Assembly: GCF_040954645.1 (NCBI RefSeq)
Contig: NC_092806.1
Location: 127,370,952-127,434,951 of the forward strand
Source of the DNA: Diabrotica undecimpunctata
Taxonomy: Eukaryota; Arthropoda; Insecta; Coleoptera; Chrysomelidae
Direction of reading: 5' to 3'
Length of the DNA: 64,000 nucleotides
Below the pieces are notes generated by a model that was given only the letters and a program-made list of their open reading frames with translations, made no database searches and was not told the DNA's origin. Each line of letters begins with the position of its first letter. The stretch's first letter is position 1. Position numbers and translations under genes: made by a program. This document shows positions 7,529 through 51,883 of the stretch, one piece after another.

Positions 7529-8896
7529 GTGCAGTTTATTGTGTATACTAGTGTTATGGAAAATTTGGAAGTGCCGTGTAAACGCCGAAAAACTGGTCCT
7601 TTAACAGTTAATGAAAAAACATTAATATTTAATTGTTTTAAATCATTTACAGACAAACGTTTATGTGAAAGTGTTGATGAGACCGTTGAGTTAGTTAGCA
7701 GTACACTTGGTGTTGGGAAATCTACGATTTACAGAGTTATTAAAGAAGAGAAATGTGGTAGTTTTCAAATGCCACGTAATGCTCCAGGGAAACCAAAATT
7801 TCAAATAGAATATCATTTTAAAGAAGGACTTCGACGGAAACTGCATGAATTCTTCTTTAGACAAGAATTCCCAACATTGGATAAAGTTCTTGTCTCAGTT
7901 CGAGATGATAAGGATTACCCAGAAATGAGTCGAAGTACGTTATGGAAACTTTTAAAAGAAATAGGCTTCCGCTGGAAAAAGAATCCCAGAAAGTCTATTT
8001 TATTAGAAAGAAGCGATATTGTCATATGGAGAAGACATTTTCTAAGAACCATAAAGGAAATGAGAAACCAAAAAAGAAAAATATTTTATCTTGATGAAAC
8101 ATGGATCAACGAGGGTCATACACCAAATAAATTTTGGCAGGATGAAACTGTTACAAGTCAAAGGCAGGCTTTTGTAAATAACTTATCTACTGGTTTAAAC
8201 CCACCATCAGGAAAGGGACGCAGGCTGATAATAGTACACATTGGCAGTTCAGACGGTTTTGTTGAAGGTGGTTTATTAACTTTTGAATCAACTCGTACCG
8301 GTGACTACCATGAAGACATGAACGCTGATGTCTTTCAAGAATGGTTCGAACAAATGATAGATCTTCTTCCTAAGAACTGTGTAATAGTAATGGATAATGC
8401 AAGTTATCACTCCAGACTTATAGAAGGACTGCCCACAACCAAGTGGTTAAAAAAAGACTTGCAGAATTGGCTGAGTTCAAAAAATATTACGTACCATCCC
8501 GGATCTATAAGAAAGGAACTTTATTCGTTGTGTGCCCTTCATAAAGAAAAATTTAAAAAATACGAAATTGATGAAATTGCCAAAAATCGTGGAATGACAG
8601 TACTTAGATCCCCACCATATCATTGTGAATTAAACCCGATTGAACTGGTATGGGCACAGATAAAGAGTGAAGTTTCAAGAAAAAATACCACTTTTAAAAT
8701 TCATGATGTTAAACAGTTGTTTTTGGAGGCCGTAAATAATGTAAAACCTGAAAACTGGGAAAAGGCAGTAAATCACACTATTAAAGAAGAGGAAAAAATG
8801 TGGAAGCTGGACAATATTACTGATAAAATGATCGAGCCAGTTATTATAAATCTTGGTTCTGAAAGTTCTTCTTCTGAATCTGATTTGGATTTGTAA
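7529..8896 (+). CDS. DD82E (Sailor-type) IS630/Tc1/mariner transposase, intact
   Basis: This 455-codon frame is uninterrupted. It encodes an enzyme expected to cut and paste its own element. Residues 24-75 resemble a helix-turn-helix (VNEKTLIFNCF ... LGVGKSTIYRVIKEE), and 112-150 a second DNA-binding part. The catalytic triad is in IFYLDETWINE (D189), VIVMDNASYHS (D289) and CELNPIELVW (E372). The D289-E372 gap of 82 residues is far longer than the 34 of Tc1 or mariner. I recall DD82E as the signature of a group named Sailor. The C-terminus is acidic and Ser-rich. Translation may start at 7529 or at the second Met (7556). Terminal inverted repeats were not found by eye. Broken relatives lie at 39930-42065 and 54530-54995. 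The intact frame suggests recent activity or selection. Confidence 0.9.
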   Translation: MQFIVYTSVMENLEVPCKRRKTGPLTVNEKTLIFNCFKSFTDKRLCESVDETVELVSSTLGVGKSTIYRVIKEEKCGSFQMPRNAPGKPKFQIEYHFKEGLRRKLHEFFFRQEFPTLDKVLVSVRDDKDYPEMSRSTLWKLLKEIGFRWKKNPRKSILLERSDIVIWRRHFLRTIKEMRNQKRKIFYLDETWINEGHTPNKFWQDETVTSQRQAFVNNLSTGLNPPSGKGRRLIIVHIGSSDGFVEGGLLTFESTRTGDYHEDMNADVFQEWFEQMIDLLPKNCVIVMDNASYHSRLIEGLPTTKWLKKDLQNWLSSKNITYHPGSIRKELYSLCALHKEKFKKYEIDEIAKNRGMTVLRSPPYHCELNPIELVWAQIKSEVSRKNTTFKIHDVKQLFLEAVNNVKPENWEKAVNHTIKEEEKMWKLDNITDKMIEPVIINLGSESSSSESDLDL

Positions 8897-18720: not shown

Positions 18721-18808
18721 AGAGCGAATGAATGTGTTAGGGTAACTACAGTGTTTATATAGTCAAAATATGTGGCAAATTTGTCATTAAGATTCAATTT
18801 AATAGTAC

Positions 18809-19088
18809 TGTAGCGTGATTAAATAAAACGAGCGGTTCGAATTTATATACATATATTTATTTATAAGTTTACAGTTCGGTACTCTCTTATCAACTAACTC
18901 TACTTCTAACATTCTTACCTATATATACTACAGTTACTGGTTTCGAGAATATTCTGGCGTTGTCCCACCTCTAATTCGCCTACGTGACCGGTTATTCTCT
19001 CTCGCACTCGATACGCCGCGAACTTTCGAGAGTATTAGAGATGCAATGCAACCGTTACCTGGGCCATGCCAAAAGTATGTTCGTAACA
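18809..19088 (-). repeat. Gypsy-1 3' LTR (280 bp)
   Basis: The plus-strand copy begins TGTAGCGTGATTAAATAA and ends GTATGTTCGTAACA. It is identical by eye to 24748-25027. On the minus strand it lies directly after the purine tract that follows pol. Confidence 0.95.
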
Positions 19089-19100
19089 CTGCTCCCCTCT
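19089..19100 (-). other. Gypsy-1 polypurine tract
   Basis: The minus strand reads AGAGGGGAGCAG directly before the 3' LTR and directly after the pol stop codon. This is the expected position of the plus-strand DNA primer. Confidence 0.75.
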
Positions 19101-22100
19101 TAAATCTGATCGTCCCGATCAGCAACTCCGGTAGGCACAGCATGGCGGAATCTACAGGACTCTCCAGCTCTGCATGAACCCTTTAGAAAGAAATAACAGT
19201 CTACTGACTTTGAAGGATACGATCCCATCGGGTTAATGCAACACACAGTAATTCGTACGCCGGTGTCTCGGAAGATCACTTCAAGCATGCTTCTGACAAT
19301 CTTCCAGTCCAGATTATCTAGTGCATGGCCTATCTTGGGTAAGGCCAAATTCTTGATGTCGTAATTGCACACAATTTTCTTCAAATTAGTTAGAGCACGC
19401 CATATATCCTCGTAGCTTGCCCTGTCTGTATAAGACTTCCTGGTCACCATATACAGCAAAGATCGGGAACCATCTTCTAATCTCAGTACTCTTCCAACTT
19501 TAGGCTGCTGGTTTTTTAACTCGTCCAAACGACCGAATTTCTTATAAAATACGGATGAGATCCCTTTAGTCATCTCAAGATCTTGGGCAACACAGTGGGC
19601 TAGAGAGACGTTATGCGGAACACTAAAAAGATCCTGCTGAACTTCTGTGGTCACGCCGAATCTAGCACTCTTTCTCGCTGCGTAATTTGACATAAATTCA
19701 TTAAAGCTTGGTCGCCGGTCATCTTTGATCTCATGTTGAAGGGTTCGTGCTTCTTCTGTTTCATTTGAGCCAGCATATGGTGCAAGACGATTTATGTGAA
19801 CTACTTTTGGTTTACCTTTCGGCAACTTCTTAATTCGGTATATTACGTCATTTATTTTCTTTTTAATTTCATATGGACCTTCCCATTGTCTTTGCAGTTT
19901 GGGAGACAAGCCTCGACGACGTTGTGGATTATAAAGCCAAACAAGATCACCTACTTCATAGCTTTCACTCTTACATCGAGAATCATATTGATCTTTCATT
20001 CTGTCACTGGCTATCTGGATGTGTTGTCGGGCAAGTTCATGAATGTTGTTCATTCTTAACTTCAGGCGGTCGACATAATCTTCGCTTGCAACATGTTCTT
20101 CGGAAGGTCTGCAGCCAAACTCTAGGTCGCAGGGTAAACGAACTTCACGACCTAACATCAGGCAGGTTGGAGTCTGGCCTGTAGTTTCATTCACGGCCGA
20201 GCGGTAGGCCATTAGGAATAAATGAATGTGCTGGTCCCAATCTCTTTGATGTTCTGATACAACTTTGGACAGGTGTTTACCCATTGTTCGGTTCATTCTC
20301 TCGACCATTCCATCTGATTGAGGATGCAGGGGTGTCGTTCTGGTCTTATTGACACCAATCAATTTACAAACGTTTTGGAAAAGGGTTGACTCGAAATTTC
20401 GCCCTTGGTCGGAGTGGATCTCCAAAGGGACACCAAATCGGCTGAAGAATTCTTTAACAAGTACCTCTGCAACGGTAGCAGCTTCTTGATTTGGTATCGC
20501 ATAGGCCTCAGTCCATTTCGTAAAATAATCCATGGCTACCAGGATATATTTATTTCCATCATTTGTCTCTGGAAGTGGACCTGCAATGTCGATTGCTACT
20601 CTTTCCATAGGACTACCAACATTGTACTGTCTCATGGGTGCCCTCTTTTTACCAGCTGGACCATTACTGGTTGCACACAGTTCACATTTCCGGCACCATC
20701 TTCTTACATCATCTTTACAGTTCACCCAATAGAACCGTTCTCGAACCTTTTGCAGAGTCTTCGTGATACCAAAGTGTCCACCTGATGCACCGTCATGCAA
20801 CTGACGCAATACTTCTGACACTTTACTTTTAGGTACAATCAACTGAAGCTTAGTTTCTGTACCATCATCGTTCTCAAAGGTTCTATACAGAAGATCATCT
20901 TTCAGCACTAGGCAATTCCATTGGCTCCAGTAACACTTGACTTCTGGACTACATGCACTAATGTCTTGCCAAGAAGGTCTCTCACTTCGACGCATCCAAT
21001 CCAATACTCTTTTTATACATGGATCATCTGCTTGAGCGTCTTGTAGCTGTTGAGGCTGCCATTGCTCATTAATGACGGTGGTTCGTCTCACGGGGCAAAG
21101 TCGTTCTTCTAATTTAAGACAGTGATTACAATTTGCACTGCACGGCCTTCTCGAAAGGGCATCAGCATTTGAATGAACTCTGCCAGCCCTGTGTTCGATC
21201 TCGTAATCATATTCTTGTAATCGTTCTAACCATCTTGCCATCTGGCCCTCTGGATTACGAAATTGTAGGAGCCATTTTAGAGCAGCGTGATCCGTGCGAA
21301 GAAGAAACTTTCTGCCATACAAGTATTTATGGAAATGCTCACAAGCCTTCACTACGCCTAGCAATTCTCTTCTGGTAACGCAATAGTTTCTTTCTGGTTT
21401 TGACAAGACTTTGCTAAAGTAAGCGATGACTTTCTCCTGTCCATCTTGGATTTGGGAAAGAACAGCTCCTATTGCACTGTTGCTTGCATCGGTGTCCAAC
21501 ACAAATTTTCCTGCCTGTCTAGGGTAGCTTAAAATCGGTGCGCTGATCAGAGCCATTTGTAAGTGTTCAAAAGCTCTTTGACACTCTTCGCTCCATGTAT
21601 ATTCTTTGCCTTCTTCTGTCAACTTTGTTAATGGCTTGGAGATATTGGCAAATCCTTTGACAAAACGGCGGTAATATGTACATAGGCCAATAAAACTTCT
21701 AATTTCGTGTTTATCTCTTGGTACTGGCCAATCCTTAATTGCTGCAAGTTTTTCAGGATCAGCTGTTACACCATTACTTGCTACAATATGTCCCAAGTAC
21801 TTCACTTCTCGTCGAAACAAGTGACATTTCTTCGGACTCAACTTCAGATTAGCTGCCCGCAATCGTTGAAAGACTTCTGTTAGATTATTGGCATGTTCAT
21901 CGAAGGATCTTCCAACTACAATTACATCATCCAAATAAACCAGGCATGTTTTCCATGTTAGACCTCTTAAAACTGCATCCATTAATCTTTCAAATGTGGC
22001 CGGGGCATTACATAAACCAAAGGGCATAACTGTGAACTGCCAAAGCCCTGATCCTATCGAGAATGCGGTTTTTTCACGATCAGCTGGCTCCATGTCTACT

Positions 22101-23341
22101 TGCCAATATCCACTTTTCAGATCGAGTGTGGAGAACCAACGAGAACCAGAAAGTGTATCCAAAGTATCGTCTATTCTGGGCAAAGGATAACTATCTTTTT
22201 TAGTTACTGCATTGAGCTGTCGGTAGTCAATACAAAAACGTGTTGAACCATCTTTCTTCTTTACTAGGACTACTGGTGATGTCCATGGACTGTTTGATGG
22301 TTCAATTACCCCTTGTTTGTTCATATCTTTGATGATGTCTTCGGCTTCATCTCTTTTCGAAAATGGAAGTCGTCTAGGTTGTTGTCTGATTGGCTGAGCG
22401 TCTCCGGTATTAATTTTATGCTTTACTATGCTTGTTTTGCCATTATCCTTCTTATCCATGGCAAAAACATCTTGAAATTCTATCAGCATAGACTTCACTT
22501 TTTTAGTTCGTTCATCATCAAGATCTTGGCACGTTTTAATCATCGTTTCGACAAGCTCCTTTGGATACTTAGATTTCGACGGTTTCTCATTAGTATTCAT
22601 GGAACAAATCGAAGCCACGGAAACACACTGTCCAATCAAAGTTCTTTTACTTAACTTAATAGCAGTTCCCTTTAAATTCATAACTCTTACAGGAACGAAA
22701 TCTCGAATTCTCACCAAAGCTTTTGCCGTTAGGAACTCGGCATTATTCACATCTTCGACCATCCTTAAACTTCCCTCTCGGCAGTAACCATCAGGTCTGG
22801 TCATCAAAATTTTCTCACTATTACCGGGTATTGTTACGTCACAAGTAGTTATTAAGCTGATAACATCTTCTTGGTCTTCATGAAACGGCAACTCTTCACC
22901 ACTGATCTCGAGAACTCCATCTTTGACATTCAATACAGCCCCAACTTTCCTTAGTAAATCCATCCCCAATATGAACTCATCGGAGATCTCTGCAATTAAT
23001 ACTGTATGTTTCACTGTGGTCTGGCCAATGGATACTGACAGATTAGCCTCGCCATATGTATTAATTATCTCACCAGTTGCTGTTCTAAGCTTTACTGTTG
23101 CAGGCAATAACTTAAGATGGCCTCGTACTACTTCTGGCCGTGCAATAGTTCTCGTTGCACCTGTATCTACCAAAAACGATCTACATTTATTATTGATACG
23201 ACCCTCTATGTACAAGCTATGAATTCCACCTGAGGACGTAATGTTCACAGTTACTATGGGGGCTGTGTTTCTCGAGGTCGGCAGTTGCCCCTTGTTGTCG
23301 ACCCGTTCTAGTTTTCCGACTGTTGTATCATTTTCTTGCAA
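19100..23341 (-). CDS. pol: Gypsy-1 pol: PR-RT-RNaseH-IN plus C-terminal macrodomain and CCCH finger
   Basis: 1413 codons without a stop, read from gag by a -1 shift within the overlap at 23308-23341 (the first codon here is TTG, so no separate start is needed). Domains in order: aspartic protease (LVDTGAT, D59); RT about 335-520 with YLDD at 469-472; RNase H about 610-730 (LDTDAS, RTDHAA); integrase with its His/Cys finger (H849, H856, C886, C889) and DD35E triad D918, D978, E1014; then a GPY/F-like module (WEGPYEI) near 1180-1200. Beyond the usual end are a macrodomain resembling TARG1/OARD1 at about 1237-1368 (SLAHCVAQDLEM, FYKKFG, ALPKIGHALDNLDW) and a CCCH finger at 1382-1400 (C-x7-C-x5-C-x3-H). 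The TARG1 catalytic Asp is kept (D1342). The Lys position holds Arg1301 with Lys next to it, and the Gly-rich loop reads MTKGIS. Confidence 0.93.
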   Translation of the reverse strand: MQENDTTVGKLERVDNKGQLPTSRNTAPIVTVNITSSGGIHSLYIEGRINNKCRSFLVDTGATRTIARPEVVRGHLKLLPATVKLRTATGEIINTYGEANLSVSIGQTTVKHTVLIAEISDEFILGMDLLRKVGAVLNVKDGVLEISGEELPFHEDQEDVISLITTCDVTIPGNSEKILMTRPDGYCREGSLRMVEDVNNAEFLTAKALVRIRDFVPVRVMNLKGTAIKLSKRTLIGQCVSVASICSMNTNEKPSKSKYPKELVETMIKTCQDLDDERTKKVKSMLIEFQDVFAMDKKDNGKTSIVKHKINTGDAQPIRQQPRRLPFSKRDEAEDIIKDMNKQGVIEPSNSPWTSPVVLVKKKDGSTRFCIDYRQLNAVTKKDSYPLPRIDDTLDTLSGSRWFSTLDLKSGYWQVDMEPADREKTAFSIGSGLWQFTVMPFGLCNAPATFERLMDAVLRGLTWKTCLVYLDDVIVVGRSFDEHANNLTEVFQRLRAANLKLSPKKCHLFRREVKYLGHIVASNGVTADPEKLAAIKDWPVPRDKHEIRSFIGLCTYYRRFVKGFANISKPLTKLTEEGKEYTWSEECQRAFEHLQMALISAPILSYPRQAGKFVLDTDASNSAIGAVLSQIQDGQEKVIAYFSKVLSKPERNYCVTRRELLGVVKACEHFHKYLYGRKFLLRTDHAALKWLLQFRNPEGQMARWLERLQEYDYEIEHRAGRVHSNADALSRRPCSANCNHCLKLEERLCPVRRTTVINEQWQPQQLQDAQADDPCIKRVLDWMRRSERPSWQDISACSPEVKCYWSQWNCLVLKDDLLYRTFENDDGTETKLQLIVPKSKVSEVLRQLHDGASGGHFGITKTLQKVRERFYWVNCKDDVRRWCRKCELCATSNGPAGKKRAPMRQYNVGSPMERVAIDIAGPLPETNDGNKYILVAMDYFTKWTEAYAIPNQEAATVAEVLVKEFFSRFGVPLEIHSDQGRNFESTLFQNVCKLIGVNKTRTTPLHPQSDGMVERMNRTMGKHLSKVVSEHQRDWDQHIHLFLMAYRSAVNETTGQTPTCLMLGREVRLPCDLEFGCRPSEEHVASEDYVDRLKLRMNNIHELARQHIQIASDRMKDQYDSRCKSESYEVGDLVWLYNPQRRRGLSPKLQRQWEGPYEIKKKINDVIYRIKKLPKGKPKVVHINRLAPYAGSNETEEARTLQHEIKDDRRPSFNEFMSNYAARKSARFGVTTEVQQDLFSVPHNVSLAHCVAQDLEMTKGISSVFYKKFGRLDELKNQQPKVGRVLRLEDGSRSLLYMVTRKSYTDRASYEDIWRALTNLKKIVCNYDIKNLALPKIGHALDNLDWKIVRSMLEVIFRDTGVRITVCCINPMGSYPSKSVDCYFFLKGSCRAGESCRFRHAVPTGVADRDDQI
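19238..19633 (-). other. macrodomain (TARG1/OARD1-like) encoded within Gypsy-1 pol
   Basis: Codons about 1237-1368 of pol. The order of conserved blocks follows the TARG1 branch of macrodomains, which bind ADP-ribose and remove it from acidic residues of proteins: DLF..P near the start, SLAHCVAQDLEM, KGI...FYKKFG, G.V..L, YMVTRKS, YEDIWRAL, LALPKIGHALDNLDW and VRITV. Seen: the Asp after GHAL is present. Known: TARG1 uses a Lys-Asp pair. Inferred: because the Lys is Arg-Lys here and the GAG loop is changed, the domain may bind ADP-ribose without hydrolysing it, or use the neighbouring Lys. Confidence 0.8.
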
Positions 23342-24597
23342 TTACGGCGAATATGACCTACGTCACCGCAATTCCAACATCTGGGCTCGCGTCTCTTCGG
23401 CATCGTGTTACGAACTACTTTTCGTACCATTTCTTCCAGACGTTCATCGTTTGGTTCGTCGCCTTCTTCGATGGTTCTTACTCGATGGCTCCGTGAAGTT
23501 TGACTAGCTGTTTCATGTTCCAAGGCAATAGCGAGCGCTTCATCCAGAACTTTTGGTCTTGCTAGTCGTAAAGCTTTCTGTAATTCACTTTCTTTTAACC
23601 CATTGACGAAGGTATCTACAGCAATTTCTTCCAAAATGTTGTCTGGTACTTCCGGATAAGCCAACCGCACTATACGAGCAACATCTGCTTCAAACTCTTG
23701 TAAATTTTCACTTGCTCGTTGAATTCTACTTCTTAGTTGCGCCTTGTAGACTTGTTGTAGATGGGCATCTCCGTAACGTTTGTCTAGTCGAGTGAACAAG
23801 GTCTGGTAACATTTTTCTTGACCCTTAGGAATCGATCTTAGGATATCTGCAGCATCACCTCGTAAAGCAGCAGTCAAGGAAACAGCTTTTTCTTGTTCTG
23901 TCCAATGATTGGCTGTCGCAATAGCTTCAAATTGTCTAAGGTATATGGACCAAGAGGACTTTCCATCAAATGGTGGCAATTTGAATCTCATATGATGTGT
24001 CATTTCGTCTCTGGCTGATTCTTCTTTTACTACCGGATCTAAAGCTACTGTATTAACTGGTGGTAGCACTTTTGTATTAGTTATCATGCTCTCTAACTGT
24101 TTGATCTTCTCTTCTACTTTATCGAATGTTTTTGTGACTTCTTCAAATTTGTCATTGTTTTGATTACATACTTCGTCGAATCTTCTAGACATATTTTCGA
24201 ATTTCTCGTCGTTTTGTCTAGCTATTTCTTTAATAGTTTGAGACGTTTCATTGAATCTTTCATCATTCTTTCGAGAAGATTCTTCAATCATTTGAGACGT
24301 TTCATTGAATCTTTCATCATTCTTTCGAGAGGATTCTTCAATTTTTTGCGAAGTTACTTCAATCATTTGAGACGTTTCATCGAATCTTTTGGAAACAGTC
24401 TCGAATTTTCCATCAATTATTTTAGTTAAAACGGCTTCGTCTGCTGACTGAAACTGGAATGTCTCTGGGTCTTCTCCATTTTTGTTGAGAACAGTCTTCA
24501 GTCGTTCTTGGAGTGTCTTCTTGGACCCACTGCAGTCTTCATCGCGTTCTTCTAGCTGCTCACGCAACTGTTTTACTGAAAGTTCTACTAGCAGCAT
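23308..24597 (-). CDS. gag: Gypsy-1 gag with SAP-like N-terminus, coiled-coil repeats and zinc knuckle
   Basis: 429 codons. Residues 6-38 (SVKQLREQLEERDEDCSGSK.. LQERLK) fit a SAP-type DNA-binding motif. Residues about 70-165 are heptad-like repeats of the form ERFNETSQMIEESSRKND, some nearly identical, predicting a coiled coil. Residues about 200-365 are capsid-like (LPPFDGKSSWSIYLRQFEA; TALRGDAADIL; LQEFEADVARIVRLAYP). A CCHC knuckle lies at C407-x2-C410-x4-H415-x4-C420 for RNA binding. The last codons overlap pol in the -1 frame. The start at 24597 leaves about 150 bp after the 5' LTR for the primer site and leader. Gag would form the particle that packages the element RNA. Confidence 0.92.
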   Translation of the reverse strand: MLLVELSVKQLREQLEERDEDCSGSKKTLQERLKTVLNKNGEDPETFQFQSADEAVLTKIIDGKFETVSKRFDETSQMIEVTSQKIEESSRKNDERFNETSQMIEESSRKNDERFNETSQTIKEIARQNDEKFENMSRRFDEVCNQNNDKFEEVTKTFDKVEEKIKQLESMITNTKVLPPVNTVALDPVVKEESARDEMTHHMRFKLPPFDGKSSWSIYLRQFEAIATANHWTEQEKAVSLTAALRGDAADILRSIPKGQEKCYQTLFTRLDKRYGDAHLQQVYKAQLRSRIQRASENLQEFEADVARIVRLAYPEVPDNILEEIAVDTFVNGLKESELQKALRLARPKVLDEALAIALEHETASQTSRSHRVRTIEEGDEPNDERLEEMVRKVVRNTMPKRREPRCWNCGDVGHIRRNCKKMIQQSEN

Positions 24598-24728
24598 CTT
24601 TGGTCAGGCACACACGTACTTTTTAAATGTTCTTTTATATAAAGATCACTACGCGGATGTTCCCGACGAATAATACTTTTCAAGTTCAAAAGTCTTTTTC
24701 AAAAGTCACTGCTGAATTTATTTGCAAA

Positions 24729-24746
24729 TCTCACACCGTAACACCA
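24729..24746 (-). other. Gypsy-1 primer-binding site
   Basis: One nucleotide inside the 5' LTR, the minus strand reads TGGTGTTACGGTGTGAGA. Its complement ends in CCA like a tRNA 3' end. I could not match it to a specific tRNA from memory. It begins right after a G that follows the LTR. Confidence 0.65.
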
Positions 24747-24747
24747 C

Positions 24748-25027
24748 TGTAGCGTGATTAAATAAAACGAGCGGTTCGAATTTATATACATATATTTATT
24801 TATAAGTTTACAGTTCGGTACTCTCTTATCAACTAACTCTACTTCTAACATTCTTACCTATATATACTACAGTTACTGGTTTCGAGAATATTCTGGCGTT
24901 GTCCCACCTCTAATTCGCCTACGTGACCGGTTATTCTCTCTCGCACTCGATACGCCGCGAACTTTCGAGAGTATTAGAGATGCAATGCAACCGTTACCTG
25001 GGCCATGCCAAAAGTATGTTCGTAACA
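24748..25027 (-). repeat. Gypsy-1 5' LTR (280 bp)
   Basis: Identical by eye to 18809-19088. It should hold the element's promoter; on the minus strand it ends next to the primer-binding site. Confidence 0.95.
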
Positions 25028-25274
25028 GTACTTTAACGACTCAATAATCACCTCATAATTTTCTCGGATTATGGGAAATCCCTTCAATCATATTATTTTA
25101 ATCTTTTCTGTAGAATTTTGAGGTAGTAATTAAAAAACCATTAGTAATTATACCGATAACGCTAATTACAAGCACAAACTTAAAATGAATTAGCGAAAAC
25201 ATACAAAAAACTTGTGTTAAACCTCAAAAACTATTAGGCGCCTAGCTGATGCAGGACTTTTTAACACCACTGTA

Positions 25275-32031: not shown

Positions 32032-33294
32032 ATGCAAACTGATATTGAGGATCTAGTTATAAATCTAAACAAAATGGCACTTAATCCAACACCTACTATT
32101 CAAGCAGCTAAAGCTCTTGCAGACTTTTTACCTACATTTAATGGCGATTCTCTGAAACTGGAAAGTTTCGTACAAAGATGCGATAAATACTATCTTACGT
32201 ACGGACAAACCACAGATAATACATTAAATGATTTTACTTTCAATGTTATTTGTTCAAAGTTACAGGATAATGTTTTAAATTTTGTTATGTGCCGACCAGA
32301 TTTAAATACCTGGCCTCTAGTCAGAGAAACGTTAAAAAATAATTTTGGCGATAGAATTGATAGACAAACGCTCACTAAAGAATTTTTACAATTAACTAAA
32401 GGTAGAAACGAAAACATTCTTGATTTTGTTGCAAAAATTTCTCAACTTAAATCAAGAATAGAAGTTAAGATTAATTCAGAAACAGAATTAAATGCGGATA
32501 GAAAATTAATATTAATGGATCAAACTGAAAGCAATTCTATCGACATTTTATTAGCAAATGTAGACGAAAAAACAAGAACAATATTAGAAATTAGAGAACC
32601 TAGAACATTTATTCAAGCTTCAGATATTATATCTAGACAATTTTACAATGATCAAAGAATTCAATCTTTAAATCCTTTTAATAAATTTAATAAAAGTAAA
32701 CCCAATTATCAAAATCATAAATATATGCCAAATTCGAACCAAAATTTCAATTTTAATCATAATTCTAATTTTAAAAATTTCCAAAATAGTACAAATAAAC
32801 ATTTTCAACAAAATCGACCTAATTTTTCAAATTTTAATCATCAATATACAAATATGCATTCTTATTCGCATAATCCTAATTTTAACCATCCCAGTCATTC
32901 AAGGCAAACATTTCCTAGCCAACCTATAAATATTCAATCAAAACCAATTCATAAAAAATATTTTACTAATGAACAAGTATTCGGTAAACCAAAACATGTT
33001 TTCGATCCAAAAAATGCTCCAAAAAATACATATCAGCCAGAACCAATGTCCACCACATCGAGAATGCCTTCCATTAAACAAAAATTTCAATTCCAACAAA
33101 GGGCTCCTCCTAATTTTCAAGTAGAAGAACTTTATAATCTATCAGAAGATGAAATTGAAAATAATCCATGTTCATGTTCCTGTTCTCAAAATTATCATTC
33201 CTATTCTCCAAATTCGAAAAATTACGAATACGAATCTCAAGATCAAAATCAGTCAAATTTTCCCGAGCGTATTCAGCAAAGTCCAAACGATTAG
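32032..33294 (+). CDS. gag: Gypsy-2 gag
   Basis: 420 codons. Residues about 10-210 are capsid-like (ALADFLPTFNGDSLKLESFV; LTKGRNENILDFVAKISQLK). The second half, from about 220, is very rich in Asn, Phe and His (NFNFNHNSNFKNF and similar), a low-complexity tail likely to bind RNA or drive assembly. There is no CCHC knuckle; a CSCSCS run near residue 395 is the only Cys cluster. Lack of a classical knuckle is usual in errantiviruses. The end overlaps pol, which lies in the -1 frame. Confidence 0.9.
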   Translation: MQTDIEDLVINLNKMALNPTPTIQAAKALADFLPTFNGDSLKLESFVQRCDKYYLTYGQTTDNTLNDFTFNVICSKLQDNVLNFVMCRPDLNTWPLVRETLKNNFGDRIDRQTLTKEFLQLTKGRNENILDFVAKISQLKSRIEVKINSETELNADRKLILMDQTESNSIDILLANVDEKTRTILEIREPRTFIQASDIISRQFYNDQRIQSLNPFNKFNKSKPNYQNHKYMPNSNQNFNFNHNSNFKNFQNSTNKHFQQNRPNFSNFNHQYTNMHSYSHNPNFNHPSHSRQTFPSQPINIQSKPIHKKYFTNEQVFGKPKHVFDPKNAPKNTYQPEPMSTTSRMPSIKQKFQFQQRAPPNFQVEELYNLSEDEIENNPCSCSCSQNYHSYSPNSKNYEYESQDQNQSNFPERIQQSPND

Positions 33295-36200
33295 CAAAAC
33301 AAATCGATTTAAATAATATAGTCCCTAATTCACTGCCATACATTCAAATAAATTTTCCAACTCCAATAAAATTATTAATAGACACAGGATGTCACCCATC
33401 TCTTCTAAGACCTTATGTTGCAGAAAAATATTTCCCTGATAAAATTAGTCGTCATACTACTCCTATAATTACTTGTGCAGGATCAAGAGAAGCACAATTT
33501 AAAGCTAAAATTCCCCTTTTAAAAGAATATAAATTATTAGATTGCTTAGATTTTGTACTATTTGATTTTCATAATTATTTTGATGGAATTATCGGAATAA
33601 GAGATTTACGAAAATTACATTTAAATCTAGATATAAACAGTGGAATTCTTTTTAACAAAACCGCAATGATACCGCTTAACTATAGGAAAAATTTTAATAT
33701 TCAAAAAATCGAAATTCCCGCTTTATCTACGATAATAAAAGAAATTTATACCTCATTGCCTAGTGGTGATTTTTATTTACAGGAAATAGAAAACCAAAAC
33801 AAAACAATAAAAATTCCATCTAGTTTAATAAACATAAACAACGGAAAGACCAAAATTGAATTCATCAATAAATCTTTCCACACTGAATTAATTAGTATAG
33901 ATGATAATTTTTTAAATAATTTTGTGGAAAATATTGAAATAAACAAATACAATTACTTTTCCATGGAGGAAGTTATGAATATTTCCACAAGTAGTAATGA
34001 TTTTAATGTAGAAGAAATAAATGATAATATTGAAGAAAATTTTAGAACAAAACACTTAAACGAAGAGGAAAAGAAAGCACTTCGGATATTAGTTAGAGAA
34101 TATCGAGACATATTTCATCATCCTAGTAATAAATTAACATTTACAAATGAAGTAAAACATAAAATTAAAACTAGTGATGAAATTCCTGTATACTCTAAGA
34201 CTTATAGATATCCCTTCGTACATAAAGAAGAAATAAGAAGACAAATAAGTAAAATGTTAGAAGATGGAATAATACGACCATCTCAAAGTCCGTGGAGTTC
34301 CCCAATTTGGATTGTTCCAAAGAAGCTAGATGCTTCTGGAAAACAAAAATGGAGAATTGTAGTAGACTACAGAAAACTGAATGAAAAAACAATTGACGAC
34401 CGCTACCCTTTACCTTCAATTCAAGACATTTTAGATAAATTAGGACGATGCCAATATTTCACTACATTGGATTTAGCCTCCGGTTTTACACAAATCGAAA
34501 TGGATGAAAATTCAATTCTGAAAACAGCGTTTAATGTAGAAAATGGTCATTATGAATATCTTCGTATGCCATTTGGTCTTAAAAACGCACCGGCTACGTT
34601 CCAAAGGGTAATGGATAATGTACTTAAAGACGTATTAAATAAAATATGCTTCGTATATATGGACGATATAATCATATTTTCAACTTCTCTTCAAGAACAT
34701 GTTAGTAACATAAAACAAGTATTCAAAAGATTAAGAAAAGCTGGATTAAAAGTACAGCTCGATAAATCTGAATTCCTTTGTAAAGATGTAGAATTCTTAG
34801 GACATGTTATAACTCCTCAAGGTATTAAACCAAATCCAAAGAAAATATATGCAATAAAAAACTTCCCAATTCCAAAAACAGCAAAACAAATTAAATCATT
34901 CTTAGGACTTATCGGTTATTATCGACGATTTATTAAAAACTTCGCTAAATTAACTAAGCCTTTAACTTCTTGTCTTAAAAAAGGTGTCCAAATTAAACAT
35001 TCTCCCGAATTTATTGAAAGTTTTGAACTTTGTAAAAATATTCTAATGAATGATCCCATTTTGCAATATCCTGATTTCGAAAAACCTTTTAATGTAACAA
35101 CCGACGCCTCTAATTTTGCAATCGGTGCTGTTCTCTCCCAAGGTCCCATAGGTAACGATTTACCTGTTGCTTTCGCATCTAGAACCCTAAATCCCGCCGA
35201 ATGTCACTATAGCACAATCGAAAAAGAACTTTTAGCCATAGTTTATGCTGTCAAATATTTTAGACCCTATTTATATGGTACAAAATTTAATATTGTCAGT
35301 GATCACAAACCTTTGCAATGGCTTTTCTCACTAAAGGAACCAAATTCAAAATTAATAAGATGGAAGTTAAAATTAGAAGAATATGATTATAACATTATTT
35401 ATAAAAAAGGTAAATTAAATACTAATGCAGATGCTCTTTCACGAGTAGAAATTCATCCTCTCGAAACTGAAGATGACAATCTCTCAGTCTTAATGAACTT
35501 AGACCCTAGCGAGTTTATCAGTTATGAAACTGAAACGCAACTAAGAAATTTAGACTCCCAAGAAATTATATCTAGATCTCCCTTTAATTTTGATAACATT
35601 TTAACAGAAAATATAGATATTAATCCTTATCAAGATATAACACAAGAATTCATAGATGAAATCATTGATACAGAATTACCGACATCAAATAATGTCTTAG
35701 AAAATATTGAAAATAAAATATTAGCACCTGAACAAACACCTGAAGTAAATTCCAGTCCAAAAATCAAAATCCTACAAGATATTGTTATTTCTAACAAAGA
35801 AGAAAATAAAAAAGATTCAGATGACTTAGAAACTGTTCATACAAGTCTAGAAGACCCTATATTAAAAATACCTTATACAGAAAAAGCTATAAATGTATAT
35901 AAAAATCAAATTATAATCTCCTCTAGTAATACTACACAACCAAAAAACACATATGTAAAAATATTTGATAAAAATAGATACTATTGGCAAATACCTAAAG
36001 AAAATTTTGAAGAAAAACAATTTTTATGCTTAGTAAAAGAAATTATAAGACCAAACAAAACATATTGTTTATTGTTTAAAGATAAAAATCTAGAGATACC
36101 ATTTATTCGTTTCATGGAAAATAACTTTAAAAATAATGCATTTTTCCTTATTATTTCAAACAAATTTCTAACAGACATAACAGACGAAGAAGAAAAAGCA

Positions 36201-37280
36201 GAAAAACTTAAATTCTATCATGAAACTAAAACAAGTCACAGAGGAATTAATGAAAACCTCGCTGCGTTAAAAAAGCATTTTTATTGGCCAGATATGGACA
36301 AAGACATTTCAAATTATATTAACACTTGTGATTTATGCCAAAAATCAAAATATGAAAGGCATCCCACTTCTCTTGTTTTTAAACCAACACCAATCGGAAA
36401 CTCTCCCCTAGAACATCTATATATCGACACATTCAAATTTAGTAGTCAAAATTTCCTAACAATCATTGACAGTTTTTCAAAATTTGGTCAAGCCTATCCT
36501 ATTAATTCCATAAATGCTGTTGAGATAGTAAATAAATTAATATTCTTTATTAGTCATTACGGAATTCCTAACAGAATAACATGTGATAATGGCATAGAAT
36601 TCAAAAATAAAACCTTCCAAGATCTCTGTCTTCTTCATCGTATAGATATTCACTATACAACTGTGTATAATCCTAATAGTAATAGTCCCATTGAAAGATT
36701 CCATTCTTCTATAATTGAAAGTTTAAGAATACTAAAAGAAGAAAAAGAAAATATTCCTATTAATATTCTAATGAGTTACGCGATACTAGCATATAATAAT
36801 AGTATACATAATAGCACAGGCTACACTCCTTTCCAAATTATGCGAGGAAAACTAGAATATAAAAATCCTTTTGAACTAGATGAAAACGAACGCATAACAC
36901 AGTACATATATGAACATTCAAATAATTTAAATATACTTAATGATTTTATTCGAAATAAATTAACAAAAACTCAAAAAAATAATTTAGAAAGAGCCAATAG
37001 AACAAAACAAAGAGAAATAAAATTAGATACAAATCGCCCTGTATATCAATTAAAAGGCTCAGAACAAAGATTAGCAAAATCAAGTCAACCCTATAAAAAA
37101 TTAATCGATCCTAAAATAGTTGGAGATAATAAAATATTATCAGAAAACAAAATATATCATTTAAGAAATATAAAACCACAACGCTTTGTTACAGATACCA
37201 GTAAACAACATGAAGCTGATAGCGACGATGATATTCCTCTTGCTACAAGGATATCAAATGCTAGAAATCAAAGAAATTGA
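33168..37280 (+). CDS. pol: Gypsy-2 pol: protease, RT, RNase H, integrase
   Basis: An open frame of 1370 codons. The first 40 or so overlap gag and are reached by a -1 frameshift, so no independent start is implied. Protease: LLIDTGCHPS (D72). RT about 335-540 with FTTLDLASGF and YMDD at 497-500. RNase H about 640-760 (TTDASNFAIGAVL; SDHKPLQWL). A long acidic spacer of about 200 residues (780-985) precedes integrase. Integrase: His/Cys finger (HETKTSH ... CDLCQKSK), then the triad YIDTF (about D1086), TCDNGIEF (about D1139) and PIERFHSS (about E1175), giving DD35E. The C-terminus overlaps the env frame by 95 bp. No stops or missing catalytic residues. Confidence 0.93.
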   Translation: MFMFLFSKLSFLFSKFEKLRIRISRSKSVKFSRAYSAKSKRLAKQIDLNNIVPNSLPYIQINFPTPIKLLIDTGCHPSLLRPYVAEKYFPDKISRHTTPIITCAGSREAQFKAKIPLLKEYKLLDCLDFVLFDFHNYFDGIIGIRDLRKLHLNLDINSGILFNKTAMIPLNYRKNFNIQKIEIPALSTIIKEIYTSLPSGDFYLQEIENQNKTIKIPSSLININNGKTKIEFINKSFHTELISIDDNFLNNFVENIEINKYNYFSMEEVMNISTSSNDFNVEEINDNIEENFRTKHLNEEEKKALRILVREYRDIFHHPSNKLTFTNEVKHKIKTSDEIPVYSKTYRYPFVHKEEIRRQISKMLEDGIIRPSQSPWSSPIWIVPKKLDASGKQKWRIVVDYRKLNEKTIDDRYPLPSIQDILDKLGRCQYFTTLDLASGFTQIEMDENSILKTAFNVENGHYEYLRMPFGLKNAPATFQRVMDNVLKDVLNKICFVYMDDIIIFSTSLQEHVSNIKQVFKRLRKAGLKVQLDKSEFLCKDVEFLGHVITPQGIKPNPKKIYAIKNFPIPKTAKQIKSFLGLIGYYRRFIKNFAKLTKPLTSCLKKGVQIKHSPEFIESFELCKNILMNDPILQYPDFEKPFNVTTDASNFAIGAVLSQGPIGNDLPVAFASRTLNPAECHYSTIEKELLAIVYAVKYFRPYLYGTKFNIVSDHKPLQWLFSLKEPNSKLIRWKLKLEEYDYNIIYKKGKLNTNADALSRVEIHPLETEDDNLSVLMNLDPSEFISYETETQLRNLDSQEIISRSPFNFDNILTENIDINPYQDITQEFIDEIIDTELPTSNNVLENIENKILAPEQTPEVNSSPKIKILQDIVISNKEENKKDSDDLETVHTSLEDPILKIPYTEKAINVYKNQIIISSSNTTQPKNTYVKIFDKNRYYWQIPKENFEEKQFLCLVKEIIRPNKTYCLLFKDKNLEIPFIRFMENNFKNNAFFLIISNKFLTDITDEEEKAEKLKFYHETKTSHRGINENLAALKKHFYWPDMDKDISNYINTCDLCQKSKYERHPTSLVFKPTPIGNSPLEHLYIDTFKFSSQNFLTIIDSFSKFGQAYPINSINAVEIVNKLIFFISHYGIPNRITCDNGIEFKNKTFQDLCLLHRIDIHYTTVYNPNSNSPIERFHSSIIESLRILKEEKENIPINILMSYAILAYNNSIHNSTGYTPFQIMRGKLEYKNPFELDENERITQYIYEHSNNLNILNDFIRNKLTKTQKNNLERANRTKQREIKLDTNRPVYQLKGSEQRLAKSSQPYKKLIDPKIVGDNKILSENKIYHLRNIKPQRFVTDTSKQHEADSDDDIPLATRISNARNQRN

Positions 37281-37839
37281 TAACCCCGTTTTACCTGTAC
37301 AAATTGGCAAAGCAAAAGTTATTTTATCCAAACATACTTTTATCTATCATATTAATTTAACTCAACCATTAGAGATAAGTAATCAAATATTATTCGAATT
37401 ATTAGATTTAAAACATAATATTACGGTAAATAATCATTTTTCTTTACTAATAGTACATAAGTTAGATCATAGTATAAATTTAAGTCAAACTATAAATTCT
37501 CAGCTAACGGCTTATTCAAAAAATACGAGAACAAAAAGAGCTTTAATTAATGCAGTAGGAAAAGCTTCAAAATGGCTTTTCGCAACCTTAGATTCTGACG
37601 ACGAAAATTACTATAATAACTATCTATCTATTCTTAATGATAATCAAAAACAAATAAATTCAAGTTTATACAAACACCACACTGTTTTAGTCGAAATGTC
37701 AAAATCATATGCAAAAAGCTTTAATATTCTTAAAGAAAATCAAAACCTGATTAGTAAACAAATGACAATAATGGCACAAGAATTAAAAGAAATAATAAAT
37801 GTTGAAAAAAGCTTTCTCACTAAATATAGTAATCGATAA
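37186..37839 (+). pseudogene. env: Gypsy-2 env, N-terminal part (before frameshift)
   Basis: 217 codons. Residues 9-23 (MKLIATMIFLLLQGYQ) look like a signal peptide. N-glycosylation sites are present. RTKR at 115-118 fits a furin site, followed by ALINAVGKASKWLF as a fusion-peptide-like stretch, in the manner of the baculovirus-F-related envelope proteins of errantiviruses. The frame stops at 37839, where the remaining two thirds continue in another frame. The disruption lies within 37799-37839, next to a run of A residues, and indicates a single small indel. In intact relatives env is made from a spliced mRNA. Confidence 0.8.
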
Positions 37840-38869
37840 TCTAATAAATCAATTACATGATTTGCAAATTGTTATTAATAATATAGAGACCGCAATATCA
37901 TTGGCAAAATTGAATATTCTTCATAATTCTATTATTAAACCTTCTCAACTAGAATCAATAATTACAAGTCTAAATAGAGTATATGGAACACAAAATATTC
38001 CAAAACTTAAAAATTTTATGAATTATTATAATCTCTTTTCTACTCAAGTTCAAATTCACAAGAATTTGATTATTTTTAAAATTCATACTCCAATTGCCAG
38101 TAATTCCTATAGATATTTCCAAATTTATCCTATACCTCTAAATAACCTTACAATTATTCCTGACCAACCTTTCCTACTTCTCAGTAGCAAAGAAAATTTG
38201 ATGACAGCCAAAAGATGTCCCGAAATTGAAAATTATTATTATTGTTTAAAGAAGACTTTACAAGAAAATTCTCAACCATGCTTAAGTAAACTTATAAAAA
38301 CTGGAAAAAATGAATGTAAAAGTACGAATATACATTTAAAGAAAACCACAATATCAACTATTAATTCAAATCAACTAGTAGTCATTCCTGTTAATTCAGC
38401 AACGTTAGAAACCAATTGTGATAAAAATGGAATATATAAAATAAGCAAACCATCAGTCATCACTATGGGAAAATGCCAGATAACAATCAACAATCAAATA
38501 TATGAAAAAGAAGAGACAATCCACGAAGAATATATATTCGACTTACCAAGATTCGAATATAAAGAAAATATAACGAATCTACCCATACTAAAATTGAAAA
38601 CATTGGATAGCAGCGAAATTAAGAAGATACAGAAAATAGCAGAAAATATAGAAATGCCCGAACTAAAAGAAGTCCCAACATATCACAACTGGACCAACTC
38701 AAGTTTAATTATTATAATTGTACTAATAATTCTTGTTTTAGCAATCTTTAAGGTGTTCAAAAGTAAATTCAAAGAATACTGTACCAAAAGGAAAACCCAG
38801 AAGACAAAAAATGGCTCAGAAAAACCAAGTCCCTTGTTTTCAGAGCTTAAGGAGGGAGGAATTATATAA
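37799..38869 (+). pseudogene. env: Gypsy-2 env, C-terminal part (after frameshift)
   Basis: 356 codons in the +1 frame relative to the N-terminal part. Heptad-like helical sequence opens it (LINQLHDLQIVINNIETAI), followed by a Cys-containing ectodomain (RCPEIENYYYCLKK; ETNCDKNG), a transmembrane segment near residues 300-323 (SSLIIIIVLIILVLAIF) and a basic cytoplasmic tail. The frame runs ten bases into the 3' LTR and passes through the purine tract. Without the indel the two parts would form a protein of about 570 residues, a normal errantivirus Env length. As it stands neither part gives a complete envelope. Confidence 0.8.
38849..38859 (+). other. Gypsy-2 polypurine tract
   Basis: AAGGAGGGAGG lies directly before the 3' LTR. 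It is also the last part of the env reading frame. Confidence 0.8.
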
Positions 38870-50296: not shown

Positions 50297-50712
50297 TGTA
50301 GGGTTTTTCTTTGTCGTCTAGGGTTTAATAATTATAGGCCACGGGTCGATTCGAATTGAAACAAACACTTTATTGTTTAACTTGTAAATTACAGGAATGA
50401 ATAATGCAACTAACGTAAACAATAACTACTTATAACTTAAAATAGGTCCGCGGCTTAATAGCAAAAATATTATCGTCTTTCGTCGTACGTCGTATAGAGA
50501 TGAGATGCCGTCATATGCATATCAACTCTTCGTCTTGAGTGCTCTACTTACACTGTGTACTCGACCCCCCGTCGAGCTACCATCATACCGCGTTTTATGT
50601 TTTTTCAGCCATGGTACTTTCGGCTTTCGGCTCGCGGTTCGTGATAAATAAAAGTTATTGGTAACGGAAATAACGGAAATGGAGTTTATTTGATGACGAA
50701 TGTAATCCTACA
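50297..50712 (-). repeat. Gypsy-3 3' LTR (416 bp)
   Basis: Identical by eye to 53524-53939. The integrase stop codon (TAG, 50708-50710) lies inside its first five bases as read on the minus strand. Confidence 0.95.
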
Positions 50713-51883
50713 CTCGGCCATCCTCTTCAGAATCCGACTCGGATTCGTCGCTTTCATTGTCGACCCACGGTTTAAGATACTCAGCACACGTTGATGTTCG
50801 CATTGGTCCCTCATGCTCACCAATCTTAACAACATCGTAACGATCGTTATCTTTAACCTTGACAATCTCGTATGGACCTAAGAACTTTATCTTGAGTTTA
50901 AGTCCTGGGCCGAACTGGGTTCTTTTTATTGCAACTAAATCTTTTTCCTTATAAATTTTTGCACGTTTTCTTCTAGAATTATACCCTTTTTTGTTTTCAG
51001 CTTGTACCTTACATATTTGTTCTTTACATCTTTCTCGAAGTTCTTTTCTTTCTTCATCATATATTTTAATCACCTCTTCCTCTATGAGTTCTCTGATTCG
51101 AATATCATCTTTATTTTTCATTTTTACGCCAACCAATACTTCGAAAGGTGTAGTACCTATACTTCGTTGATAGGTAGAGTTCAATGCATTTTGTACCCTG
51201 TCAACATTTTTATACCATTTCGTAGGTTCTTCTAAACTCAATTTGGTAAGAACAGGGATGATTGTTCTATTCACTCGTTCAACCTGACCGTTTCCTCGTG
51301 GTACTCCAGTTGTCACTAGAACATGTTGAATGTTTTCTTCTTGGCAATATCTTTCAAATTCCTCTGATCGAAATGCTGTACCTCGGTCGGTTATCATTCG
51401 AGAAGGGTTTCCAAATATTCTTCGTTGCTTTTCAAGACAACTTATAACTTCTTTCGTCGTTGTGGACTTCGTCGGGTAAAGCCAAACAAATTTGGTAAAA
51501 TCGTCTATAATTACAAGTATATGCTGATAATTCTTACTTGTAGACTGCAATGGACCCAAATGATCCGCATGGTATGTGTGCAGTGGACCGTCTAGTTTTG
51601 GTATGGGGTTAAGTGTCCCTTCCTTTTTTCCTTCCTTTTTGCTTCCCAGTATACATGCTATACAGTTAGAAATAACATTTTTAACTTTTTCTTTTATCTT
51701 TGGTATATAAAAGTCTTTAGCTATTACTTCCTCAGTTTTTTTCTCAGAAAAATGTCCTACCTCGTGACTTCTTCTTATTATCTCAGTCTGCATATTTCTC
51801 GGTACAACTAATAGTTTTAATCCATTGACATACTTGTATAATATTTCGTGCTCTAAGTAAAAATCTTCATATGCTTCTGTCAA
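50708..51883 (-). CDS. pol: Gypsy-3 integrase (pol remnant)
   Basis: 391 codons, stop-free. His/Cys zinc finger: H40, H44, C74, C77. Catalytic core: TYHADHLG (D107), MITDRGTAF (D166) and GNGQVERVNR (E202), a proper DD35E triad. A C-terminal module (IKFLGPYEIVKVKDNDRYDV) is followed by an acidic tail. The frame is open upstream of the first Met for at least ten codons and lies -1 to the end of the gag-like frame, the usual gag-pol arrangement. This suggests that an in-frame deletion joined gag directly to integrase, removing protease, RT and RNase H. Integrase alone could still act if supplied in particles of a complete relative. Confidence 0.9.
   Translation of the reverse strand: MTEAYEDFYLEHEILYKYVNGLKLLVVPRNMQTEIIRRSHEVGHFSEKKTEEVIAKDFYIPKIKEKVKNVISNCIACILGSKKEGKKEGTLNPIPKLDGPLHTYHADHLGPLQSTSKNYQHILVIIDDFTKFVWLYPTKSTTTKEVISCLEKQRRIFGNPSRMITDRGTAFRSEEFERYCQEENIQHVLVTTGVPRGNGQVERVNRTIIPVLTKLSLEEPTKWYKNVDRVQNALNSTYQRSIGTTPFEVLVGVKMKNKDDIRIRELIEEEVIKIYDEERKELRERCKEQICKVQAENKKGYNSRRKRAKIYKEKDLVAIKRTQFGPGLKLKIKFLGPYEIVKVKDNDRYDVVKIGEHEGPMRTSTCAEYLKPWVDNESDESESDSEEDGRV

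Follow-up and report, generated by a model that had tools for sequence, protein, structure and literature searches.

A TARG1-type macrodomain and a CCCH zinc finger at the integrase end of a beetle Ty3/gypsy retrotransposon

Where viruses carry macrodomains, this is known to betray an antiviral use of ADP-ribosylation; in animals, domains of this kind serve to read or strip off ADP-ribose tags. What, then, is such a domain doing at the end of a retrotransposon integrase? The question is raised by a 64,000-nucleotide stretch of the beetle Diabrotica undecimpunctata (contig NC_092806.1, positions 127,370,952 to 127,434,951; hereafter the window), which holds a long terminal repeat (LTR) element of the Ty3/gypsy type. 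An initial annotation had claimed that its intact 1413-codon pol runs on past the integrase end into a macrodomain of the TARG1/OARD1 type and a CCCH zinc finger, and that this tail belongs to the element. Each of these claims was borne out by our analysis.

The tail and its copies in the Diabrotica genome

The integrase C-terminal domain (PF22938) ends near pol residue 1188, after which about 225 in-frame residues remain. The predicted macrodomain fold was superimposed as a whole on human TARG1 (1.0 Å over 141 residues, 38% identity), and both fold and sequence assign it to the TARG1/OARD1 type along the whole domain. It scored 16.6 bits against the Pfam Macro family, below the cut-off of 22; a Pfam scan at E up to 0.01 likewise gave no family for L078, a TARG1-like sequence of the same genome that is 48% identical to a mammal OARD1. 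The finger follows the pattern C-x7-8-C-x5-C-x3-H and matched PF00642 above the cut-off, and its region lies mostly below 70 in predicted local distance difference test (pLDDT) in both structure models. Among 5.39 million open papers, with subscription journals mostly outside the search, none came to light that describes a retroelement with a macrodomain, as judged by titles and the beginnings of abstracts.

When the source genome was searched with the tail, we obtained 6088 first-look candidates and scored the best 150; copy counts here are lower bounds. All 150 covered tail residues 1-195 at 96-100% identity, and 148 were without an internal stop. Since this sample had been chosen by the tail itself and was biased towards it, a second one was picked by 360 bases of integrase-end DNA (1565 candidates, 40 scored, 30 fetched). 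The whole tail was found directly after the integrase end in 30 of the 30 fetched copies, at 97-100% identity, and 26 were open to the normal stop. Same-family copies lacking the tail, which would have pointed to a one-off fusion, were absent from these 30, which contradicts that candidate explanation. We give next to no credence to the broader idea that the tail reflects a fusion, an assembly error or a chance resemblance, given its wholeness in both samples and its match to TARG1 in fold and in sequence.

A second lineage (B) was found in the same genome. Ranking integrase ends by likeness to a metagenome relative gave open frames such as 1422, 1431 and 1841 codons, and we read downstream of 14 of the 150 ranked rows, hand-picked for varied frame length. 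Thirteen of these stretches were of lineage B, with a tail about 42-43% identical to that of the window; L160 has a tail deletion (38% identity) and L161 a broken frame. The remaining one, L151, is of the window type, its tail interrupted by an internal deletion. The finger is kept in 11 of 13 open full-length lineage-B tails.

Relatives in other beetles and the origin of the macrodomain

A profile search matched 1562 proteins, the best 120 of which were listed. Among the matches listed, the same tail occurs in Brassicogethes, Aromia and Pyrocoelia (Nitidulidae, Cerambycidae and Lampyridae, as looked up), in Gonioctena, Leptinotarsa and Acanthoscelides, which we take to be Chrysomelidae, and in sequence collections without names. 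The named proteins closest to the tail are those of Diabrotica (looked up as Chrysomelidae), and rows from outside Diabrotica are 38-51% identical to the window tail. In six rows (P0007, P0010, P0021, P0029, P0081 and P0082), integrase-end sequence and macrodomain sit in one protein, in that order, and these rows span Chrysomelidae, Cerambycidae and Lampyridae; for Brassicogethes, the link to an element comes from the shared tail and its ending. That ending is a peptide, Arg-(Gly or Arg)-(x)-Gln-Cys, into which 11 of 14 relatives run on. At this position the window DNA consists of the purine tract and the first LTR bases, and by extension the peptide would represent purine tract and LTR start in the other relatives as well. 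Of 15 transposable element (TE) rows, the window included, 11 have the finger motif in its exact form; in two more, Ser replaces the first Cys, and in P0007 and P0081 either the frame or the motif is lost.

The tail is thus an old feature, carried by proteins of four beetle families, and not private to one element, which corrects the initial annotation where it placed the capture in this element alone. We suggest that at least some beetle proteins annotated as 'OARD1-like' (P0003 and P0004) are transposon parts and not host genes.

The initial annotation also took the macrodomain to come from a host gene and proposed a tree against OARD1. Our first tree held 49 rows: 12 TE macrodomains, L078, 13 eukaryotic OARD1 sequences (12 animal and one EukProt row, Rmarinus) and 23 phage or bacterial sequences. 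L078 was the sole insect host gene in it. The 12 TE macrodomains formed one group (support 96/91), with L078 beside it (99/81) and OARD1 as the next group. In a second tree that included lineage B, support was 99/88 for the TE group, 94/78 for L078 as its sister and 92/82 for OARD1, with the bootstrap unsettled. This grouping with eukaryotic OARD1 agrees with a host origin and is most simply explained by a single capture, the donor being a TARG1-type gene of a eukaryote, most likely an insect.

The alternative that the domain came from a virus or bacterium draws on the spread of TARG1-like macrodomains. In viral contigs, the tail query alone gave no relatives among three pattern matches, and a profile gave 58 loci (L001-L058); twelve phage records were also found, for example Bacillus phage G gp437. 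The 14 loci extracted and tabulated keep both Lys and Asp; 12 were used in the trees after two near-duplicates had been dropped, together with 11 prokaryote loci as outgroup. Insect RNA viruses carry such domains too, the top viral fold match being VP8 of Kadipiro virus (BFVD A0A8E0KJF2; E 1.1e-16, 35% identity), presumably a mosquito double-stranded RNA virus. However, the 23 phage and bacterial rows split from TE and eukaryotic OARD1 rows at 99/98 in the first tree and 100/98 in the second, and we consider this origin improbable, although trees without insect RNA-virus macrodomains speak only to a phage or bacterial source.

L078 (C3:100934206-100934631) has the full Lys/Asp dyad of TARG1 and shares with the TE tails a Trp after the TY motif and a final Val-Cys. 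Unlike them, it lies in a 683-codon frame with no integrase match and no finger seen. We rejected it as firm kin of the capture donor, because its support as sister fell to 94/78 once lineage B was added; it is possible that the transfer ran in reverse and that L078 was derived from an element. The same putative beetle TARG1-type gene of 683 codons, with the dyad, was seen at L078 1027-3078 and L150 4733-6784, both on the minus strand. It has a long charged N-terminus and gave no Pfam match at E up to 0.01.

Active site, selection and proposed function

The catalytic dyad of TARG1 is given as Lys84 and Asp125 in a passage of PMC9411070; a passage of PMC7050489 prints the second residue as Glu125. 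In the window copy, Arg1301 of an Arg1301-Lys1302 pair aligns with Lys84, Asp1342 with Asp125 and a Thr with Gly41 of loop 1, in line with the kept Asp, substituted Lys site and altered Gly-rich loop described initially. Residues were counted in 45 distinct copies, the window copy included, after three of 49 own loci had been dropped as partial matches and L092 recognized as a duplicate of L086. The Lys84 position is Arg in 45 of 45; at the Asp125 position, 43 copies have Asp and two have Glu. In the D. virgifera row, these positions hold Arg and Glu. Lineage B keeps the Lys, has lost the Asp together with its glycine loop, and has a rewritten first loop. Outside Diabrotica, Lys is found in 10 of 10 TE rows, Asp in 9 and the full dyad in 9. 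The earlier view that reader and eraser activities were both possible therefore holds only lineage by lineage. The tree does not place the two Diabrotica lineages as sisters (moderate support), so that two separate breaks of the dyad, each of its own kind, are probable. Such a loss is no proof of inactivity, because SCO6735 lacks both residues yet is active, according to a passage of PMC9411070.

Comparison of substitution rates across copies, also proposed initially, was made on the integrase-chosen copies, six of them of a second subfamily; four of the 30, whose tails are not open as far as the usual stop, were left out. Between the two subfamilies, the ratio of nonsynonymous to synonymous rates (dN/dS) of the macrodomain was 0.22, with 5.06 synonymous and 4.12 nonsynonymous changes per pair; pol upstream of the tail gave 0.04, from 95 of 120 pairs. 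In the 45-copy sample, which is biased through its selection by protein likeness to the tail, and in which several upstream comparisons, misaligned by indels, were left unused, variants common to at least three copies comprised 8 nonsynonymous and 15 synonymous changes against an expected nonsynonymous share of 0.78 (p 1.2e-5). The dN/dS of 0.22 makes a moderate case that the window-family macrodomain seems still to be constrained despite loss of the Lys, less so than the integrase.

How might these observations fit together? The initial annotation offered, as a hypothesis, that the domain counters ADP-ribosylation of the particles or binds modified nucleic acid. We put at roughly 0.5 the probability that a beetle Ty3/gypsy lineage took in a TARG1/OARD1-type domain once, that it then served as an eraser, and that in Diabrotica it is now more likely a binder; the intake itself is backed by sequence, fold, copies and tree. 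As the last part of Gag-Pol, the tail would travel in the particle and stay on the integrase, and the finger would hold it on element RNA or complementary DNA (cDNA) ends. The macrodomain would remove ADP-ribose from nucleic-acid ends or from Asp/Glu residues in proteins of the element and the host, and so reverse PARP-type marks during reverse transcription and integration. In Diabrotica, each of the two lineages would later have lost a different half of the dyad, for which reason the domain, that of the window copy too, would more likely bind ADP-ribose as a reader, shield or decoy than remove it.

Some published work is consistent with this account. Passages of the review PMC7050489 describe TARG1 as stripping ADP-ribose from proteins and nucleic-acid ends and suggest that ADP-ribosylation could mark transposon-derived RNA. 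A passage of PMC4695847 ties L1 silencing in mammals to the ADP-ribosylation of KAP1 by SIRT6, and ZAP/PARP13, a PARP-family protein with CCCH fingers, restricts L1 according to passages of PMC4441479. That TARG1-like folds turn up in insect RNA viruses as well is a hint that the domain benefits selfish elements of insects.

Several points weigh against it. Neither Diabrotica lineage has the complete dyad, and in the group with most known copies the role of eraser is thus unproven or has been lost; the Leptinotarsa tail has no Asp loop, and all 12 TE rows have Ser or Thr in place of Gly41 of loop 1. The eraser reading also assumes that PARP-type marks restrict insect LTR elements. As for selection, the macrodomain ratio has a p of 0.03 if treated as one pair, on about nine changes, and the rest of the tail gave 0.99 on few changes (1.1 synonymous and 3.7 nonsynonymous per pair). 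Singletons were short of nonsynonymous changes as well (49 of 81, p 3e-4; shared versus singleton p 0.035), so part of the shortage reflects sampling or mutation bias, and lineage-B macrodomain variation was not distinguishable from neutral (15 nonsynonymous of 22, p 0.23).

One competing explanation is that the macrodomain is a reader for integration targeting, guiding the integrase to chromatin that carries ADP-ribose, for instance at PARP-marked breaks or active genes, with catalysis secondary and lost in Diabrotica. In favour of this idea are its place right at the C-terminal end of the integrase, which in chromoviruses is occupied by the chromodomain, a fold kept while half of the dyad was lost in two lineages, and the constraint in the window family despite the Lys to Arg change. 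A pure reader, however, would not need the dyad that is complete in nine of the ten rows from other beetles and unnamed sources, and lineage B also lacks the residues aligned to both TARG1 glycine loops; we consider this explanation rather unlikely. Another holds that the finger is the working part, binding element RNA for packaging or for priming near the purine tract, and that the macrodomain is a decaying passenger or scaffold. The finger is C-terminal, keeps its exact motif in most TE rows, is free of fixed differences between the two subfamilies and persists in lineage B, where the macrodomain loops are gone. Against this stand the conservation of the macrodomain across beetles, its ratio of 0.22 in the window family and the intact dyad of most other rows, which make the explanation unlikely.

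Returning to capture of an eraser followed by binding in Diabrotica, we tentatively raise a wider possibility, one that may well prove wrong, that here, for the first time, a retroelement encodes a system to counter or read ADP-ribosylation. Insects would mark retroelement RNA, cDNA or integrase in defence, and beetle Ty3 elements would have captured a eukaryotic eraser and joined it to the integrase along with an RNA-binding finger; in Diabrotica, the resulting pseudoenzyme would read ADP-ribose, either to stay hidden from ADP-ribosylated targets or to locate them. A conserved macrodomain at the integrase end of an amplified beetle retrotransposon points to conflict over ADP-ribosylation inside insect genomes, and the tails of other beetle families suggest that ADP-ribose tags matter in the contest between insects and transposons. 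Between them, the tails supply naturally occurring active sites, some intact-looking and some altered, on which such a conflict could be tested.

The element, its neighbours and related systems

Features of the element are collected in Table 1. Both gag and pol are open, and the insertion looks young, since a 282-nucleotide LTR block is 100% identical between the two ends and a GTAC target duplication flanks the element. Bases after the tail are nearly identical in the other copies read; copy L105 has no stop there.

Table 1. Coordinates of the window element and its parts
Feature	Position	Strand	Basis
Ty3/gypsy-type LTR element, 6.2 kb	18809..25027	-	LTR block and target duplication
Target duplication GTAC, 4 bp	18805-18808 and 25028-25031	flanks element	read from sequence
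3' LTR, identical to 5' LTR	18809..19088	-	
Stop codon merging into polypurine tract, adjoining 3' LTR	19089..19102	-	sequence
pol open reading frame, 1413 codons: protease, reverse transcriptase, RNase H, integrase, tail	19100..23341	-	Pfam on separate pieces
CCCH zinc finger, pol residues 1382-1400	19142..19198	-	PF00642 above cut-off; CPSF4 finger match 1.8e-6
TARG1/OARD1-type macrodomain, pol residues 1231-1367	19241..19651	-	sequence, fold, alignment
Asp1342, counterpart of TARG1 Asp125	19316..19318	-	alignment
Thr-Arg-Lys, pol 1300-1302; Arg1301 at place of TARG1 nucleophile Lys84	19436..19444	-	alignment
Integrase C-terminal domain (PF22938)	19778..19879	-	48.4 bits, cut-off 27
gag open reading frame: SAP domain, Retrotrans_gag, CCHC knuckle	23308..24597	-	Pfam
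5' LTR, TGTTACG...CGCTACA	24748..25027	-	

The SAP domain (PF02037) of gag spans residues 5-35 and scored 26.9 bits (cut-off 23.9); SAP is, to our knowledge, a DNA-binding type of domain and not usual in gag. In some copies, a single open frame of about 1800-1866 codons stands in place of the 1413 or 1414 codons seen in others, which looks as though gag and pol share one frame in that part of the family.

Other mobile elements were also seen in the window. At 32032-38869 (plus strand) lies a second LTR-type element, errantivirus-like, with a gag-like open reading frame (Retrotrans_gag below the cut-off) and two frames matching the Baculo_F envelope family, between which a 1370-codon frame lies. 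An integrase frame of another element at 50708-51883 (minus strand) had no macrodomain match (Pfam, E up to 0.01), and a transposase-like frame at 7529-8896 (plus strand) matched DDE_3 and, weakly, a winged helix-turn-helix.

With its order of protease, reverse transcriptase, RNase H and integrase, LTR pair, 4-bp target duplication and purine tract, the element is an ordinary member of Ty3/gypsy (Metaviridae); it differs by the extra residues past the integrase C-terminal domain, an extraordinary tail. Chromoviruses likewise carry an extra domain of the chromatin-protein type, the chromodomain, at the integrase C-terminus; its fold is unrelated to that of the tail, and a Pfam scan of the last 319 pol residues (E up to 10) gave no chromodomain match. 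Viral macrodomains (alphavirus nsP3, coronavirus, rubella) are a case of the same fold in a selfish element, and the window fold is not nearer to these MacroD-type domains than to TARG1. The macrodomain of the bacterial antitoxin DarG, which acts on thymidine-linked ADP-ribose according to a passage of PMC7050489, is 21% identical to that of the window. Human TARG1/OARD1 (C6orf130), of the ALC1-like macrodomain class, has the whole fold in common with the tail; compared with it, the window domain is part of an integrase polyprotein, is followed by a CCCH finger, and has Arg for Lys84, Thr for Gly41 and Cys for Tyr150.
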